Assembly: GCA_016872795.1 (NCBI GenBank)
Contig: VGYZ01000005.1
Span: 1-64,000, forward strand
From: Planctomycetota bacterium
Lineage (GTDB): Bacteria; Planctomycetota; UBA1135; GCA-002686595
Length of the DNA stretch: 64,000 bases
Direction: 5' to 3'
Positions 16,280 to 25,981 of the stretch are shown piece after piece (within the stretch, counting starts at the first letter, position 1; every line of letters starts with the position of its first letter). Made by a program: the position numbers and the translations under genes. The notes below the pieces were generated by a model that was not told the origin of the DNA, did not search any database, and worked only from the letters and a program-made list of their open reading frames with translations.

Positions 16280-17986
16280 TCATTCGCGCGGCACGCGCCA
16301 GACCTCGAGCACCGGGCCGAGCGAGCGCGCGCGCAGCAGCCGCAGCGTGAAGTGCGGCCATGTGACGAGCTCATCATCGTTGAAGTGATCCGAAAGCTGG
16401 AAGAAGAGCTCGAGCTCGCTCGCCTGAGGATCGAGGTCCGGCGAGAAGCGCGCCAGCCGCTCGCCCTTCGCCCGCAGCGCCTCGCGCACGCGCACCTGCA
16501 GCGGATGGTTCGTGCGCTGCTCGTAGACCTCGATCAGGAACAGCGCGGGGCCGAGCGACTCGAAGTAGGCGGGCAGGTCGGCCGCGGCCGCCCCGCGCGG
16601 AGCGACCAGCCAGCGCAGGTCGTAGGTCGGCGCATCGAGCGCTCCCGGCTCCATGCGCGCCTGCCATGCGGTCCACGGGCTCAGGGGCAGCTTCGGACGC
16701 TTGCCGTAGAAGAGCAGGCCGTCGGGCTTGCGCAAAAGCGGCAGGTCGAGCGCCGGCGGCGCCGCGGACACATACATCGTCTCGTCGCCGCCGCGCGCTT
16801 CCAGCCACTGCGCAGCCTCGACCAGCGTGTCGGGCCGACAGCGCAGCCATGCGAGCTTGGCGCACGCGCACGAGGGCAACACGAGCGCGAGCCCGCATCC
16901 AAGCGCGACGACCTGCGCGCCGAGCCGCGCTGCCCAACGCTGCGCGCCCCACGCGGCGAACACGGCGAGGTAAGGCAAGAGCGGCAGTACGAAGCGCTCG
17001 TAGGTACGCTCGAACAGCCCGATCGCGAGCAGGTACGGCAGCGCGAAGGCGAGCACCACCGCCAGTGCGCGTCCATCGACGCGCTCGCGCTGGAATAGAA
17101 GCGCCAATGCCGCCAGCGGGAGCAGCACGCACAGGAGCGGCTCGTAGTTCCACAGCGACTGGGCGATCACGGCAAAGCCGCGACCGTAAAACTGCGACAG
17201 GTCGACCGCGTGCTCCGCGAGTCGCACCGAGCCGCCCTCGAGCGCGCGCGCCTGCCCGACGCGCTCGAACAGGAACGGGTAGAAAAGCGGGATCGCCGCG
17301 AGCGAAATCGCGACGGCGAGGAGCAGCCGGCGATCGAGGAAGCGCGCTCCCCCACCGCGCAGCGCGTGCGCGACGAGCGCCGAGAGCAGCACTGCGACAC
17401 CGTAGTGCAGCGAGCCGAGCGCGAGCGCCGTCGCCGCGGCAGCCAGCGCGTACGCGCGCCACGAGCCGTCGCCGAGAAGCCGCAAGTGCGCGAGCACCGC
17501 CGCGAGCATCAGCGTCGCCGCGAAGGCGTGCGGCCGCGCCTGCTGGGCGAAGCTTTGGTGCAGCAGGCTCGTCGCCATCAAAGCGGCTGCGAACAACGCC
17601 CAGCCGTCGCGCACGAAGCGCCGCGCGAGCAGGAATGTCAGCGGAATCGCGAGCGAGGCGACGAGCGCGACGAGGAAGCGCACCTGCACATGCGTGTGCG
17701 CCGCCGCAGCGAGGTGGCCCGCGAGATCGCCCGGAGCTCCCGGACCCGCAGCCGGCGGACGCGCGGGCAGCCAGCGCGCGAGGTCGGCGATGAGGTGCGG
17801 ATACTGCTCATCGGGCTCCTCCACCGCCGCCACGCTCCAGCCCTCGCGCACGAGATCCACATGGCCGGGAATGTCCGGGTCCGGCTCCTCCCACACCGGC
17901 ACGCCGAACCCAAGCCCCGTGAGCCGCAGGCCGAGGGTGGCGCCGAAGAGCAGGCCGAGCACGAGCAGGAGGCGTGCGCTGCGCAT
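16280..17986 (-). CDS. Multi-pass GT39/PMT-type glycosyltransferase
   Basis: This is an integral membrane protein of 568 residues in the GT-C fold. It has an N-terminal hydrophobic segment, then a large loop with the acidic motif WEEPDPDIPGH (about 32-42) where family members hold the catalytic Asp. About ten further hydrophobic segments follow, and then a C-terminal periplasmic domain of about 150 residues. Such enzymes move a sugar from a polyprenyl-phosphate donor to protein or lipid acceptors on the outer face of the membrane. The DPMS-like protein at 11268 could make the donor. The ATG follows a GAGGAG Shine-Dalgarno sequence. The specific substrate is unknown. Confidence 0.8.
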   Translation of the reverse strand: MRSARLLLVLGLLFGATLGLRLTGLGFGVPVWEEPDPDIPGHVDLVREGWSVAAVEEPDEQYPHLIADLARWLPARPPAAGPGAPGDLAGHLAAAAHTHVQVRFLVALVASLAIPLTFLLARRFVRDGWALFAAALMATSLLHQSFAQQARPHAFAATLMLAAVLAHLRLLGDGSWRAYALAAAATALALGSLHYGVAVLLSALVAHALRGGGARFLDRRLLLAVAISLAAIPLFYPFLFERVGQARALEGGSVRLAEHAVDLSQFYGRGFAVIAQSLWNYEPLLCVLLPLAALALLFQRERVDGRALAVVLAFALPYLLAIGLFERTYERFVLPLLPYLAVFAAWGAQRWAARLGAQVVALGCGLALVLPSCACAKLAWLRCRPDTLVEAAQWLEARGGDETMYVSAAPPALDLPLLRKPDGLLFYGKRPKLPLSPWTAWQARMEPGALDAPTYDLRWLVAPRGAAAADLPAYFESLGPALFLIEVYEQRTNHPLQVRVREALRAKGERLARFSPDLDPQASELELFFQLSDHFNDDELVTWPHFTLRLLRARSLGPVLEVWRVPRE

Positions 17987-18034
17987 GAAGGCTCCTCAGT
18001 CTCCCCGCCGCCGCCGCCGTTTGCCACGCCAACA

Positions 18035-18071
18035 CGAACGCTTGCGTTCGAAATCCCGGCCTCGCTATGGT
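18035..18071 (+). promoter_or_regulatory. 16-bp palindrome overlapping a promoter-like pair
   Basis: CGAACGC-TT-GCGTTCG (18035-18050) is a perfect inverted repeat in the gap between the divergent GT39 and acyl-CoA-dehydrogenase-like genes. A rightward promoter-like pair, TTGCGT (18042-18047) and TATGGT (18066-18071) with an 18-nt spacer, overlaps it. The right arm therefore lies in the -35 box, as expected for a dimeric repressor site. No regulator gene is adjacent. The leader to the ATG at 18229 would be about 150 nt. Confidence 0.4.
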
Positions 18072-18228
18072 GGCGAGCGAGTTGATCGCCATGGAATTGC
18101 TGCCCCTCCTCTGACCCAGCGCTCCGGCTCGGCGTGCCCGAGCCCCGCGTCCCACCGGACGCGCCGGACGGGTTTCCTAGGGATCCCGCGCCGGGCGACG
18201 GTGGCCTACCCCCACCACCCTCGCCCGC

Positions 18229-19347
18229 ATGAAGTTCGACCACCTCGCCGCGTCCGAAGCGCTCGCCCACGTCGCCCGGGAACACGCGCCGCGCATCGAT
18301 GCGAACGCCGCCTATCCGACGGAATTCATCGCCGCCGCCCGCGCGCAGGGCCTGCTCGGCCTGCTCTCTTCCAAGGACGTCGGCGGGCACGGTGCGGGGC
18401 CGCGCGAAGCCGCCGAAACCGTCGAGCGCGTGGCCCGCGAGTGCGGCTCGTCGGCCCTGGTGCTCACCATGCACTACGCCGGCGCCGCCGTGATCGAAGC
18501 CCACGGCTCGCTCGAGGTTCGCCGCGAGCTCGCGGCGGGCCGCCACGTCTCGACCCTCGCCTTCAGCGAAGCTGGTTCGCGCTCGCACTTTTGGGCTCCC
18601 ACCAGCACGGCGCGCGCCGAGGCGGGGGACGTCGTGCTCGACGCCCACAAGAGCTGGATCACCTCGGCGCAGCACGCGAGCGCCTACGTGTGGTCCAGCC
18701 GCCCGACTTCCGGGAGCGAGCTGTCGAGCCTGTGGCTGGTGCCCGCGCGCTCCAAGGGGCTCTCGGTCGATCGCCCCTTCGACGGCCTCGGCCTGCGCGG
18801 CAACGACTCCGCGCCCGTCACGGCCGTCGGCGTGCGCGTGCCCGCGAGCGCGCGACTCGGCGCCGACGGAGCAGGCTTCGCGATCATGATGCAGACGGTG
18901 CTGCCGCTCTTCAATGTGCTGACCTCCGCCGGATCGATCGGCATGTGCGAGGCCGCCGTGGCGAAGACGGCGGAGCACGTCGGCAGCCAGCGCTACGAAC
19001 ACCTCGGAAGCTCGCTCGCCGAACTGCCGACGATCCGTGCCTACGTCGCGCGCATGCGCATCCAGACCGACATGGCGCGCACGCTGTGGCAGGACACGCT
19101 CGCGGCGCTCGAGACCGGCCGTCCCGACGCGATGCTGCGCGTGCTCGAAGTCAAGGCCGCGAGCGCCGAGACCGCGCGCGAGGTGCTCGACACGGCCATG
19201 CGCGTGTGCGGGGGCATGGCGTTTCGCAAGGACGTGGGCGTGGAACGCCGCTTCCGAGACACGCGCGCCTCGCTCGTCATGGCGCCGACGACCGACCAGC
19301 TCTACGACTTCATCGGCAAGGCGGCGACCGGCCTGCCGCTGTTCTAG
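18229..19347 (+). CDS. Acyl-CoA-dehydrogenase-fold flavoprotein
   Basis: This is a soluble 372-residue protein with the three-part acyl-CoA dehydrogenase fold: an N-terminal helical part (1-110), a middle beta domain (TLAFSEAG..., DAHKSWITSAQHA) and a C-terminal helical domain (230-372) with the typical RRFRDTRA. The catalytic Glu of true dehydrogenases is not evident. The C-terminal site reads VMAPTTDQLYDFIGK where many members have EGT, and the helix-G site reads LPLFNVLTSAG. Lack of a base is seen in flavin-dependent monooxygenase relatives (DszC/HpaH type), so an oxygenase role is possible. It is first in a three-gene cluster with a PhnD-like protein and a TusA/ferritin fusion. Confidence 0.85.
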   Translation: MKFDHLAASEALAHVAREHAPRIDANAAYPTEFIAAARAQGLLGLLSSKDVGGHGAGPREAAETVERVARECGSSALVLTMHYAGAAVIEAHGSLEVRRELAAGRHVSTLAFSEAGSRSHFWAPTSTARAEAGDVVLDAHKSWITSAQHASAYVWSSRPTSGSELSSLWLVPARSKGLSVDRPFDGLGLRGNDSAPVTAVGVRVPASARLGADGAGFAIMMQTVLPLFNVLTSAGSIGMCEAAVAKTAEHVGSQRYEHLGSSLAELPTIRAYVARMRIQTDMARTLWQDTLAALETGRPDAMLRVLEVKAASAETAREVLDTAMRVCGGMAFRKDVGVERRFRDTRASLVMAPTTDQLYDFIGKAATGLPLF

Positions 19348-19359
19348 GGAGAGCGCTCG

Positions 19360-20208
19360 ATGCCGCACTCCATTCGCCTCGGCGCCGTGGCCTACGACCC
19401 CAAGGTCGTCACGATCTGGGACGGCTTTCAGGCCTTCTTCGCCGCTCACGGCCTCGCGTTCGACTACGTGCTCTACACCAACTACGAGCGGCAGGTCGAG
19501 CAGCACTTCGCTGGCGCATTCGACGTCGCGTGGAACTCGCCGCTGGCATGGATCGAGACCGAGCGCGTCGCTCGCGCGCGCAACACTCGCGCCAGCGCGC
19601 TCGCGATGCGCGACACCGACTGCGATCTCAGGAGCGTGATCGCCGTGCGCGAGGAAGGGCCCGTGCGATCGCTCGCCCATCTCGCGGGCAAGGTCGTCGG
19701 CGTCGGCGCGCAAGACTCGCCGCAAGCCACGCTGATTCCGCTCGAGCACCTCGCGCAGCACGGCCTGCTCGCTGGCCGCGACTTCGAAGTGCGGCGCTTC
19801 GACGTGCTCGTCGGCAAGCACGGCGACCACGTCGGAGGCGAGCGCCTCGCGGCGCAGGCGCTCGTGCGCGGCGAGATCGACGCGGCCTGCATGATCGACG
19901 GCAACCACCTCGCCTTCTCCACCGATGGCAGCCTGCCGCGCGCTTCGACGCGCGTGCTCGACCGGACAGGTCTGTTCGACCACTGCAACTTCACGGTGCT
20001 CGACGGCGCCGACGCCGCGCCGATCGCACGCTTGCGCGAGCTCTTGCTCGGCATGCGCTACGACGATGCCGCCGTGCGACCGCTGATGGATCTCGAGGGA
20101 CTCAAGGCCTGGCTGCCCGGCCGCACGAGCGGCTACGCGCTGCTCGAGCAAGCCTGCGACCGCTCGCGCTGGCTCGCGCCGTTCCTGCGTTCCATGGGAG
20201 CGGCGTAG
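19360..20208 (+). CDS. PhnD-like substrate-binding protein without signal peptide
   Basis: The 282-residue product resembles the periplasmic-binding fold of phosphate/phosphonate binding proteins (PhnD/SsuA group). Its start reads RLGAVAYDPKVVTIWDGF. It also has YERQVEQHFAGAFDVAWNSPLAW, the hinge-type LAGKVVGVGAQDSPQ, and GEIDAACMIDGNHLA near residues 172-186. It begins directly with the first beta strand, and no signal peptide or lipobox is present. It is therefore probably cytoplasmic and not a transport receptor. No ABC permease or ATPase lies nearby. A GGGAGAG Shine-Dalgarno sequence precedes the ATG and the next gene starts 5 nt after the stop. The ligand is unknown. Confidence 0.78.
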   Translation: MPHSIRLGAVAYDPKVVTIWDGFQAFFAAHGLAFDYVLYTNYERQVEQHFAGAFDVAWNSPLAWIETERVARARNTRASALAMRDTDCDLRSVIAVREEGPVRSLAHLAGKVVGVGAQDSPQATLIPLEHLAQHGLLAGRDFEVRRFDVLVGKHGDHVGGERLAAQALVRGEIDAACMIDGNHLAFSTDGSLPRASTRVLDRTGLFDHCNFTVLDGADAAPIARLRELLLGMRYDDAAVRPLMDLEGLKAWLPGRTSGYALLEQACDRSRWLAPFLRSMGAA

Positions 20209-20213
20209 CGCTC

Positions 20214-21395
20214 GTGCGTCGTTCACTCGCTCTCGCGGGGCTGGGCTTCGACCGCGGCGCGGGCGTGCTGCTCGCGCGCGAGCTGCGCCGCGCGCAGCCC
20301 GGCGACGAGCTCGAGATCACCGGCAGCGCGAGGGAACTGGGGCTGCATCTCGCGGCCTGGGCGCGCGCGGGTGGTCACGCGCTCGTGGAAGGGCGCGGCG
20401 GCTGGGCGCTGCGCTTCGGCCCCTCGACGCAGGCCCGCCGCCGAGGTGCACAGCGCGCCGGAGCGCCGGAGCCGTCTTCCGTGGCCGAGCACGCCCGGCC
20501 GTGCTGGGGGCTCGCGGCGCGCGGCGCGCTCGTCGAAGCCGGAGGGCAAGCGCTCGGCTTTCGACTCGACCGCGCCGAGGAGATCTGGTTTTCGAGCGCG
20601 GCCGAGCTCTACCGCGCCGCCGCCGCCGCGCAGTGGGATCCGTCCGCCGACATTCCGTGGGACGCGCCGCTCGAGCATCCTGACGAGGTCGAGGACGCGC
20701 TGGTCTGCGTCCTGACGTTCTTGATCGAAAACGAGACGGCCGCACTGCTCGTGCCCGCGCGCTTCGCGACGCAGGTCCACCCCCACTTCCGCGAGGTCGT
20801 GCAACTGCTCGCGCTGCAAGCGGCCGAGGAGGCTCGGCACATCGAGGTGTTCTCGCGGCGAGCCGCGCTGCGCCGCGGCGAGCTCGGACTCTCGACGGTC
20901 GGAGGGCAAGCCTCGCTGCGCACGCTCGTCGAGGAGCCGGACTTCGCGCGCGCTGCGCTGCTGCTCAGCGTGCTCGGTGAGGGCACGTTCCTCAACCTGC
21001 TCGCCTTCCTGCGCGAGCACGCGCCCGACGCGGCGAGCGCCGAGATCATGCGCCGCGTGGCGATCGACGAGGCTCGCCATGTCGCCTTCGCCATGGCGCA
21101 CCTCGGAGAGCACGCGCGAGCCGACGCGACGCTGCGCGCTCGCCTCGCCGCCGCGATCACACAGCGCCATGAGGCACTGCGCGCGAGCGCCGGTCTCAAC
21201 GAGGAAGTCTTCGATGCGCTGGTGCTGCTCGCGGCAGGCTCGTTCGATCCCGAAGCGATCGCGCAAGGTCACGCGCGCGTGCAGGAGCTCCTCGGCCAGA
21301 TGGACGCCGGACGCAGGCTGCGGCTGCGCAAGCTCGGCTTCGACGAGCGCGAGGCGGCCGAACTCAGCGGCCTGCACACGCGCAACTTCATGTGA
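20214..21395 (+). CDS. TusA-like / ferritin-like di-iron fusion protein
   Basis: This is a 393-residue protein starting at GTG 20214. Residues about 1-68 look like a TusA fold (LARELRRAQPGDELEI, then LAAWARAGGHALVE), but the Cys of the CPxP sulfur-carrier motif is missing (FDRGAG occupies the place). A linker leads to a ferritin-like four-helix domain. Its likely iron ligands are Glu172/174 (ENE), Glu206-x-x-His209 (EARH), Glu256 (GEG) and Glu286-x-x-His289 (EARH). A WDPSADIPWD motif (141-150) precedes the bundle, as in some di-iron oxygenases. A di-iron oxidase or oxygenase is the likely activity, but the substrate is unknown. It closes the cluster that begins at 18229. Confidence 0.78.
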   Translation: MRRSLALAGLGFDRGAGVLLARELRRAQPGDELEITGSARELGLHLAAWARAGGHALVEGRGGWALRFGPSTQARRRGAQRAGAPEPSSVAEHARPCWGLAARGALVEAGGQALGFRLDRAEEIWFSSAAELYRAAAAAQWDPSADIPWDAPLEHPDEVEDALVCVLTFLIENETAALLVPARFATQVHPHFREVVQLLALQAAEEARHIEVFSRRAALRRGELGLSTVGGQASLRTLVEEPDFARAALLLSVLGEGTFLNLLAFLREHAPDAASAEIMRRVAIDEARHVAFAMAHLGEHARADATLRARLAAAITQRHEALRASAGLNEEVFDALVLLAAGSFDPEAIAQGHARVQELLGQMDAGRRLRLRKLGFDEREAAELSGLHTRNFM

Positions 21396-21455
21396 GCGCG
21401 CCCGCGGCGTGTGTGGGCGCCGTGGAACGGACCGTGCTCGTCCCGTCAGTGTCGA

Positions 21456-21469
21456 GCGCCCGCGGGCGC
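21456..21469. terminator. GC-rich palindrome between convergent genes
   Basis: GCGCCCGCGGGCGC is a perfect 14-bp palindrome in the 129-nt gap between the TusA/ferritin gene and the convergent spoVR end. There is no T-run on either side. It could stop transcription only with help such as Rho, and it may be incidental in this GC-rich DNA. Confidence 0.25.
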
Positions 21470-21524
21470 GCCTCCTCGCAGACTGGCGGCACGCGCTGCA
21501 CGCCGCTCGAACCGGCGCACCGAC

Positions 21525-22829
21525 CTAGCTCGCGAGGTCGATGGACGCCTCCCCGTCCGACTCGTCTCGCTCGATCCGACCGCCGCTGCATCGCAGTTGG
21601 CGCGGGCTGCCCTTCTCGATCGTCTCGAGCACGACCGGCGCGCGCCAGAGCGACTCGACGCGGGCGAGCGTCTCGCCGGCGCGCTCGAGGTTCAGGTCTC
21701 GTCCATCGTGACGGTGCACGAGACGCAGATCCCGAGTGCGCTGCGCCTCGACGAGCTCGATGCGCGGCGCGCCACCCCACGCGAGCTGCGAGAGCAGCCG
21801 CTCCTTCACATGCCGCGGATCGCGCTCGCGCCCGTCGCCCGCCTGAGCGCGCCGCGTCCGCACGGGCAGCGCGATCTCCCCGGAAGCGACGAACTCCTCG
21901 TCGACGAGCGCATCGACGAACGAAGCATCGTCGTGGAGGCTGCGCAGCCGGAAGAGGTCGTCTCCCCGCCGCTCCGCGTGGCGCCAGAGCGCCAGTCCGA
22001 GCTTGTAGGGGTTGATCCGGCCGGGGCCTTGCTGCGTCGCGCCGCTGTGACAATCCGCGAAGTCGATGATCTCGCTAGCGTCGAGAACGCCGCCGGTCAG
22101 GATCCTGCTGTGCCAGTAGCAGGCCCAGCCTTCGTTCACGATGCGGGTGAGCCGCTGCGGCAGAAAGTAGCGTGCCTCGGCGAGCACGATGCCGGTCGCG
22201 TCGCGCTCCCAGTCCTCGAGCGGCGCATGCTCGACGAGCCAGGCCAGCACATCGTATGTCGGGAGCGTCAGCGTCCCCGCGCCGCTGCAAGCCCAACGGG
22301 AGCGCTGGTCGCGGTACGGATCGAGCAGGTTGTCGAGGCACAGCACGCCGTCGAGAAACCGCTCGACGCGCTCTTGGCCGTGTCGCTCGATGTGCTCGCG
22401 CATGCGCTCCGCATGGCGCGCCATCGTCGCGAGCATGTTCCGATCCGTGCCGGCGAACCATGTGTTGTGGCGGAAGAAGTCGGCGTGCCCACAGACATGC
22501 GCCATCACGAGCTTCTGTTCGCTCTCCACGTTCGAGCGCACGAGCCACGCCACGACAGGATCGGTGTTGATCACCAACTCGTAGATGCGGGCCTGCCCCC
22601 AGCCGTGAGCCTTCTCGAGGCGCTCGTACTCCATGCCAAAGCGCCACGACGGGTAGCGCACAGGAAAGCCCCCGAGCGCGGCCAGCGCGTGGACATCGCT
22701 CGCATCGACGCAGTGGAACTTCAGTGGAAAGAAGTCGAGACCATGACCGCGTGCCGCCTCCTCGATGCGCCGGGCCCAGTTCGCGAGCGAGGGAGTCAGC
22801 GATGTCGATGCAAACGCGCGCGAGCCCAT
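21525..22829 (-). CDS. SpoVR family protein
   Basis: This 434-residue cytoplasmic protein matches the SpoVR/YcgB family: FHCVDASDVHALAALGGFPVRYPSWRFGM in short pieces, YELVINTDPVVAWL, MAHVCGHADFFRHN and NEGWACYWHS. Family members are usually about 470-520 residues, so the C-terminal part is somewhat short. The molecular role is unknown. In many non-sporulating bacteria the gene travels with prkA and the DUF444 gene as a stress or stationary-phase unit, exactly as here. The ATG shares one base with the stop of the DUF444 gene (TGATG). This gene is not evidence for sporulation. Confidence 0.92.
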   Translation of the reverse strand: MGSRAFASTSLTPSLANWARRIEEAARGHGLDFFPLKFHCVDASDVHALAALGGFPVRYPSWRFGMEYERLEKAHGWGQARIYELVINTDPVVAWLVRSNVESEQKLVMAHVCGHADFFRHNTWFAGTDRNMLATMARHAERMREHIERHGQERVERFLDGVLCLDNLLDPYRDQRSRWACSGAGTLTLPTYDVLAWLVEHAPLEDWERDATGIVLAEARYFLPQRLTRIVNEGWACYWHSRILTGGVLDASEIIDFADCHSGATQQGPGRINPYKLGLALWRHAERRGDDLFRLRSLHDDASFVDALVDEEFVASGEIALPVRTRRAQAGDGRERDPRHVKERLLSQLAWGGAPRIELVEAQRTRDLRLVHRHDGRDLNLERAGETLARVESLWRAPVVLETIEKGSPRQLRCSGGRIERDESDGEASIDLAS

Positions 22830-23935
22830 CAGCGCCCGCTCCCGAGAAACGCACGAATCGCGCCCAGCACCTCGCCACGATCGGCCACGCTCGCCGTGAC
22901 GAGTCGAGAATCAGCGCCGAACGCGAGATCGAGGTCCTTCTTGAACTGCCCGGATCCGTACGCGCTCCGGACCTGCCCGTAGCAGAATTGGTTGACGCTC
23001 GGGAGCAACTCGGTGCGCAGCAGCTCGACACAGCGCTCGGTGTCGCGCGCGGACCAGTTGTCCCCGTCGGAGTAGTGGAACGGATAGACATTCCACAGCT
23101 CCGGAGGATACTGCTCGCGCATGACCTGCAGGCACAGCTCGTAGGCCGAGCTGATGCGCGTGCCTCCGGCCTCGCGCACATGGAAGAAGGTGTCGTGATC
23201 CACGACCTTCGCGGCCGCGTCGTGAACGATGTACACGACCTCGAGGTTTCGATACTGACTGCGCAACCATGTGTCGATCCAGAAGGCCTTGAGCCGGACG
23301 ATCTCCTTCTGCTCGCGCCCCATCGAGCCCGACACGTCCATCATGTGGAACACGACCGCGGAACTCTGCGGGCGCGCTGCTGGCCTTGGCGCACGGAAGC
23401 GCAGGTCGTCCTTGACGGGGATCACGCGCGGGTGCGCCGGATTCCACTCACGCGATGCCACCGTGCGACGCAGGGCAGCTGCGAATGTTCTCCGCGCGTG
23501 TCGCAGCGAATCCGGACCACGCGCTCGAAGTCCACCGTAGCGCGGGCCGTCGCCGACCTGGTCGCGGCGTCCGCGCGGCTGAATGTCTGGCAGCTCGAGC
23601 TCGCGACCGAGCATCTGGGCGAGTTCCTCGAGTTCCACATCGACCTCGAGCGCATGCTGGCCGAGGGCGTCGCCCGCCGCGCCTTCTCCAGCCTCTGCAT
23701 CACCGCGCGACGAAGAGTGCCCACTGCGCGGACCGCCACCCTGTCCGTGGCCTTCCTCGTCGCCTAGCGCAAACTCGAAGCGCGGCAGTTCGACCTGCGG
23801 GATCGGAACGCTGACCGCCCGCTCTCCGACATGCGCGATCAGCTCGGAAGTCGACAGGTAGCGCCCGAGGTCGGCACGAATGCGCCCGCGAACGATCTCG
23901 CGAAAGCGCGCGCGATCGGCCTCGATGCGGTCCAC
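22829..23935 (-). CDS. DUF444 (YeaH/YhbH) family VWA-like protein
   Basis: The 368-residue product belongs to the YeaH/YhbH family. It has a disordered, Gly/His/Ser-rich segment (about 60-95), then a von Willebrand A-like domain with the MIDAS-type DVSGSMG at 200-206. Further blocks are VYIVHDAAAKVVDHDTFF, GGTRISSAYELC and YPFHYSDGDNWS. The role is unknown. Its gene is conserved between prkA and spoVR, and the kinase may act on it or through it. It starts 3 nt after the prkA stop and overlaps spoVR, so the three are surely one transcript. Confidence 0.92.
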   Translation of the reverse strand: MDRIEADRARFREIVRGRIRADLGRYLSTSELIAHVGERAVSVPIPQVELPRFEFALGDEEGHGQGGGPRSGHSSSRGDAEAGEGAAGDALGQHALEVDVELEELAQMLGRELELPDIQPRGRRDQVGDGPRYGGLRARGPDSLRHARRTFAAALRRTVASREWNPAHPRVIPVKDDLRFRAPRPAARPQSSAVVFHMMDVSGSMGREQKEIVRLKAFWIDTWLRSQYRNLEVVYIVHDAAAKVVDHDTFFHVREAGGTRISSAYELCLQVMREQYPPELWNVYPFHYSDGDNWSARDTERCVELLRTELLPSVNQFCYGQVRSAYGSGQFKKDLDLAFGADSRLVTASVADRGEVLGAIRAFLGSGR

Positions 23936-23938
23936 GGC

Positions 23939-25981
<2,043 letters not shown>

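Follow-up and report, generated by a model that had tools for sequence, protein, structure and literature searches.

What does a compact cluster of three genes, encoding an acyl-CoA dehydrogenase (ACAD)-like flavoprotein, a PhnD-like binding-protein fold, and a TusA-like/di-iron fusion protein, contribute to the bacteria that carry it? This question is raised by a 64,000-nucleotide stretch of DNA from a Planctomycetota bacterium (GenBank assembly GCA_016872795.1, contig VGYZ01000005.1, positions 1 to 64,000), hereafter called the window, in which an initial annotation had singled out a co-directional trio with gaps of 12 and 5 nt. The coordinates, strand, and spacing were all confirmed (Table 1), and we regard all three genes as real because their homologues in other phyla are 53-84% identical and keep the same gene order. 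The genomic associations described below make it very likely that this cassette is a selenium-metabolism module, one that probably helps its carriers to obtain or handle selenium.

The fusion protein occurs at 15 loci in Planctomycetota, Myxococcota/Deltaproteobacteria, Caulobacterales, a Hydrogenophaga metagenome-assembled genome (MAG), and Actinomycetota; one of these loci, L002, is all but identical to that of the window. When genomes were searched, another 11 Planctomycetota came to light (with the window, 12 of 246), as did three more Burkholderiales (4 of 250) and 13 more Actinomycetota that have the family of the PhnD-like solute-binding protein (SBP; 14 of 396). Conservation of the cassette extends over Planctomycetota, Myxococcota, Pseudomonadota, and Actinomycetota. 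The PhnD-like gene adjoins the fusion gene in every fusion locus with intact context, and the ACAD-like gene is also adjacent except in Caulobacterales, where an ACAD of the cassette family is absent from all six genomes. Only the three cassette genes are common to the loci compared, and their co-occurrence, which the initial annotation had proposed to score over homologues of the fusion, proved to be far beyond chance. The ACAD-PhnD pair makes up the core of the cassette, and its third partner can be exchanged, being a di-iron protein (as in the window), a radical S-adenosylmethionine (radical-SAM) enzyme, or a MetE-like protein. A plasmid search with the fusion protein gave no match, and one with the SBP returned three actinomycete plasmids.

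Accessory genes of selenium metabolism (YedE, YedF, LysR_Se, and DUF3343) were found by their co-occurrence with SelD and by their neighbourhood (PMC5322559), and the cassette displays both properties. In the Hydrogenophaga MAG (L016), selA is followed after 31 nt by the ACAD-SBP-fusion genes and, after a further 48 nt, by selB and tRNASec; upstream of this set lie fdhE, other genes of formate dehydrogenase, and a SECIS match. An actinomycete locus (L047) carries selD, tRNASec, selA, selB, and the ACAD, SBP, and fusion genes in this order on one strand, the final two junctions overlapping by 4 nt. L047 belongs to a different cassette subgroup from L016, and operonic placement with sel genes is found in two distant lineages. 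The gene for tRNASec also lies 46 bp beyond the fusion gene in a third, unrelated genome, a Kofleriaceae MAG (L006). Across 45 loci, three adjacencies to sel genes within 200 bp were observed, against about 0.02 expected by chance. Further associations include a LysR_Sec_metab-like regulator divergent from the fusion gene in the actinomycete loci L042 and L045 (237.8 and 249.2 bits, respectively, with a cut-off of 250) and, on a Miltoncostaea oceani plasmid (L118), an ACAD-SBP pair that is separated from selA-selD by about 6 kb.

Co-occurrence points in the same direction. SelD and/or SelB is encoded in 41 of the 43 cassette genomes, 39 having a SelD match over the cut-off and two more having SelB; the window's own genome encodes both proteins, and its SelD has an in-frame TGA. 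Neither protein was found in G165 and G214, both of which carry the radical-SAM form, and every genome with the di-iron, pair-only, or MetE-like form (41/41) encodes at least one of the two. SelD is present in 33.7% of sequenced bacteria (PMC5029168), a background that describes sequenced bacteria overall rather than each phylum. Five di-iron-form genomes without a SelB match (G004, G005, G007, G559, and G791) all have SelD, which points to a role at or upstream of SelD and not in selenocysteine (Sec) decoding. The same five genomes speak against the idea that the cassette supports or matures selenium formate dehydrogenase or other molybdoenzymes and does not act on selenium itself. That idea draws on the position of the L016 cassette behind fdh and fdhE and on the naming of MoeX, a protein of Mycobacterium tuberculosis considered below, as a molybdopterin protein; since no fdh or molybdenum genes were noticed at L047 or L006, we judge it improbable.

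Several points nevertheless weigh against a selenium role, beginning with the general nature of the SelD background. Within phyla, SelB was found in 11 of 12 cassette genomes of Planctomycetota compared with 161 of 246 overall (65%; P=0.04), in 12 of 12 actinomycete cassette genomes other than those with the radical-SAM form compared with about 53% (one split selB being counted), and in the single cassette genome of the Caulobacterales sample (1/1) compared with 7 of 99. This signal is modest because many Planctomycetota (65%) and many of the sampled actinomycetes (54%) have SelB anyway, and the combined exact probabilities (P=7e-6 without the radical-SAM form and P=0.0013 with it) are optimistic because the genomes are kin. 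Most cassette genomes are MAGs, the window's own cassette stands beside SpoVR-DUF444-PrkA genes and not beside sel genes, and the TusA-like domain of the fusion has no cysteine. Finally, the radical-SAM (mycobacterial) form occurs without SelD or SelB, so the chemistry would not be strictly bound to selenium.

The product of the first gene has the three-domain ACAD fold, matching all three Pfam acyl-CoA dehydrogenase domains (N, M, and C). The initial annotation saw no evident catalytic glutamate in it, and this observation stands: the glutamate of the YEGT motif is replaced by Ala352 (motif VMAPT), with alanine in 18/18 aligned relatives. A glutamate at a shifted position, which the same annotation named as grounds for abandoning its proposal, was also looked for, and the alternative position used in LCAD/IVD (helix G) is likewise not Glu. 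An ordinary β-oxidation dehydrogenase is thereby ruled out, and the broader notion of a fatty-acid enzyme with chance neighbours, which has the fold and the database annotation as an acyl-CoA dehydrogenase family in its favour, is rendered extremely improbable by the missing base and by a gene order kept across phyla. A score of 405.7 bits for NF049984, the Rv1679/FadE16 family (curated cut-off 600), makes this protein a relative and not a member of that family. For the group D flavin monooxygenases (DszC/SfnC type), which are characterised by an ACAD fold without the catalytic base and by a reaction of flavin with O2, the DszC model gave 48.8 bits (cut-off 850). Models for SfnB, DszC, and sulfinopropanoyl-CoA desulfinase are among its relatives, which, together with the TusA-like domain and the existence of a mycobacterial form without SelD/SelB, would be expected of an organosulfur-oxidation module for sulfur acquisition whose selenium link is secondary, through overlapping sulfur and selenium chemistry. 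We consider this rather improbable given the placement of the cassette in sel operons, the presence of SelD/SelB in all di-iron-form genomes, and the fact that no sulfur-starvation genes were noticed alongside. No flavin reductase gene was noticed beside the ACAD-like gene.

The second gene encodes a protein with the PhnD fold (PF12974, E=1.6e-26). In an AlphaFold2 (AF2) model (pLDDT 91) the predicted fold begins at residue 3, which leaves no room for a signal peptide, in agreement with the earlier description of a periplasmic-binding fold without export signal. No permease or ATPase partner is among the genes common to the cassette loci. A fold search of the PDB with the model placed PhnD, PtxB, and HtxB at the top, followed by AioX/ArrX. 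Invariant residues specific to the cassette (K153, H154, G155, D156, and the pair H208 and C209 in an 18-row alignment) set the protein apart, and its score against the Rv1680 family model NF049985 (199.7 bits, curated cut-off 400) identifies it as a relative rather than a member. A role in the oxidative degradation or the sensing of a small phosphonate would suit the closest folds; yet the KHGD and His-Cys residues are unlike those of transport PhnDs, neither genes for C-P lyase or phosphonatase nor phosphite genes were noticed near any cassette, and the context is one of selenium, making this explanation very improbable. The initial annotation had envisaged an oxidative pathway acting on a phosphonate- or sulfur-type ligand, and while its oxidative component remains plausible in light of the base-less ACAD and an O2-type di-iron site, its phosphonate component is not supported.

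The third protein is composed of a TusA-like domain (approximately residues 1-70), a linker, and a ferritin-like di-iron domain (approximately residues 125-393). The annotated combination of a Cys-less TusA-like domain with a di-iron domain stands in its second half, in that four carboxylates and two histidines (E174, E206, H209, E256, E286, and H289) are invariant in 18/18 rows and follow the E..ExxH..E..ExxH order of the ferritin-like di-iron oxygenase superfamily, and a PDB fold search with the AF2 model found resemblance to ADO, VlmB, and R2lox; the Pfam AurF match is below its cut-off. The first half is less secure: the Pfam TusA match is weak (E=0.02, 15.2 bits against a cut-off of 28.6), whereas the beta-alpha-beta-alpha-beta-beta order predicted for the N-terminus fits the TusA fold. 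The CPxP cysteine is indeed missing in all 18 rows, and a role as a Cys persulfide carrier of the TusA kind is ruled out as a result.

Table 1. Genes of the cassette in the window
Feature	Position	Strand	Evidence
ACAD-fold flavoprotein-like gene, relative of Rv1679/FadE16	18229..19347	+	Pfam, NF049984, 18-row alignment
Cytoplasmic PhnD-fold protein gene, relative of Rv1680	19360..20208	+	PF12974, NF049985, AF2 model, conservation
TusA-like/di-iron fusion gene, GTG start	20214..21395	+	Pfam (below cut-off), AF2, fold search, invariant ligands

Directly downstream of the cassette, on the minus strand of the window, lie the SpoVR, DUF444 (YhbH), and PrkA genes (21525-25957; flanking borders are approximate, having been called by a simple codon-usage script), and in L003 and L004, two close relatives, the sequence shows these same neighbours in the vicinity of the cassette. 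A scan of positions 17000-22500 of the window gave no match to an Rfam RNA family. Elsewhere, an FGE-sulfatase-domain gene is inserted between the PhnD-like and fusion genes of the planctomycete G559 (L102:10631-11659); this domain also occurs in EgtB/SenA-type enzymes. One Caulobacter MAG has its PhnD-like gene in two frames (L009:9097-9936), possibly through an assembly error, and in two Caulobacterales without the ACAD-like gene a UPF0176/rhodanese-domain gene precedes the PhnD-like gene (L009:8037-9026; L010:4765-5727).

The first two genes are distantly related to FadE16 (Rv1679) and Rv1680 of M. tuberculosis, where the radical-SAM protein Rv1681/MoeX takes the place of the third partner. 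A mycobacterial-type locus (L040) contains four genes scoring above the cut-offs of the NCBIfam models NF049984, NF049985, NF049973, and NF049986, which between them cover Rv1678 to Rv1681, its third cassette gene being of the radical-SAM type, and a similar set is present on a Mycolicibacterium plasmid. Upstream of the mycobacterial plasmid form are a deiodinase-like gene and an AhpD/carboxymuconolactone-type gene (L119:3908-4723), and on a Rhodococcus opacus plasmid the radical-SAM partner matches in two un-annotated pieces (L120:9852-10400) and may be decayed. The Rv1680-type SBP bears a resemblance, at a score below the cut-off, to TIGR04553, a model for a putative selenate SBP. The SBP tree nests the radical-SAM form within a di-iron group (support 92/90), which makes an exchange of the third enzyme probable. 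Further arrangements include a side branch (L049) with a MetE-like third gene overlapping the SBP gene by 4 nt, a locus (L118) in which the radical-SAM gene lies elsewhere in the cluster, and loci with the ACAD-SBP pair alone (L050-L052). The TusA-like N-termini of the fusion and the Rv1681-type proteins align over the same region in a profile comparison, which is not significant (probability 1.6%, E 0.03) and leaves their homology unproven.

Several actinomycete variants (L118:2639-11838, L041, L049, and L050) lie near DoxX-like, GT2, TIGR04282, MTAP-like, and radical-SAM genes, and these may form a larger biosynthetic cluster. A link to arsenosugars is a lead only, as TIGR04282, GT2, and an ArsM-like gene are near a few actinomycete variants and not near the di-iron form generally. 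The neighbouring genes, the fact that the third enzyme changes within the SBP tree, and the high conservation of the SBP would each suit the biosynthesis of a small molecule containing or carrying selenium, downstream of SelD, with the SBP-fold protein acting as an enzyme, as do MqnA, MqnD, and Thi5. The replacement of a di-iron by a radical-SAM protein would then be the usual swap between O2-dependent and O2-independent steps of cofactor pathways. Most di-iron-form loci lack those extra genes, however, and where the cassette is best placed its neighbours serve Sec decoding (selA, selB, and tRNASec), for which a separate selenometabolite would have no need; we regard such a pathway as unlikely.

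For selenium supply as opposed to selenium use, the balance of the evidence is slightly favourable. In the mechanism that we envisage, the base-less ACAD-like flavoprotein and the TusA-like/di-iron protein would act on an organic selenium compound, such as a methylated one, by oxidation or dealkylation, and the small selenium species released would be bound by the cytoplasmic PhnD-fold protein through a PhnD/AioX-type anion site and the invariant His-Cys pair of the cassette. From this protein the selenium species would go on to be reduced, and SelD would use the resulting selenide. The MetE-like gene of L049 would fit demethylation or methyl-selenide chemistry. We infer the substrate, the direction (supply rather than use), the reaction in which each protein takes part, and that the setting is aerobic. 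The full proposal, in which a selenium module of bacteria that are mostly aerobic works by this mechanism at the level of SelD or upstream of it, falls a little short of an even chance. That selenium is freed oxidatively from methylated or other organic compounds to supply SelD is less likely than not, and it is likewise doubtful that the cassette is an undescribed O2-dependent route of organoselenium release, with a PhnD-fold carrier to SelD, that forms the aerobic counterpart of the corrinoid methyl-selenide pathway and has a radical-SAM sister form in mycobacteria (FadE16-Rv1680-MoeX).

How selenide is acquired and carried safely to SelD is poorly known in bacteria, and reviews list few candidate genes. 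Through the cassette, three protein families with no assigned function become linked to selenium metabolism, in at least four phyla. FadE16, Rv1680, and MoeX of M. tuberculosis also gain a first functional lead, which would place an ACAD with a wrong annotation, a binding-protein fold of the cytoplasm, and a radical-SAM enzyme in one module, to which the selenium-linked di-iron form is related. The initial annotation knew of no named system with this gene set, and we likewise found no description of one in the open-access literature. Nor did that literature yield functional work on Rv1679-Rv1681 or this gene set, although a subscription paper could be missed. Term searches found the three families neither named in the selenium candidate-gene study PMC5322559 nor mentioned in recent selenium reviews, and the three-gene cassette thus appears to be undescribed as a system.

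Among systems that are known, the M. tuberculosis genes Rv1678-Rv1681 (DoxX-like, FadE16, SBP-like Rv1680, and MoeX) include ACAD-like and SBP-like homologues whose order is the same; the window's cassette scores far under the family cut-offs, has a TusA-like/di-iron third gene, and lacks a DoxX-like gene, and the radical-SAM-form genomes searched encode no SelD or SelB, unlike those with the di-iron form. The PhnD/PtxB and AioX/ArrX binding proteins, whose ligands are small oxyanions, share the fold of the second protein, which differs from them in having neither an export signal nor adjoining ABC partners and in its invariant KHGD and His-Cys residues. VlmB, ADO, and R2lox have the fold and di-iron ligand set of the fusion protein, but at about 15-22% identity, without the additional TusA-like domain, and in an unrelated genomic context. 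YedF also contains a TusA/SirA-like domain, but retains the CPxP motif and has a DsrE domain. A published parallel in overall logic is the type I mlp cluster of anaerobes, which is mostly Sec-linked, includes a minority clade without selenium, and has been inferred to handle methyl-selenide (PMC10418091). Like the cassette, it combines strong co-occurrence with Sec genes and a selenium-free minority, whereas it encodes corrinoid methyltransferases, is confined to anaerobes, and shares no gene with the cassette.

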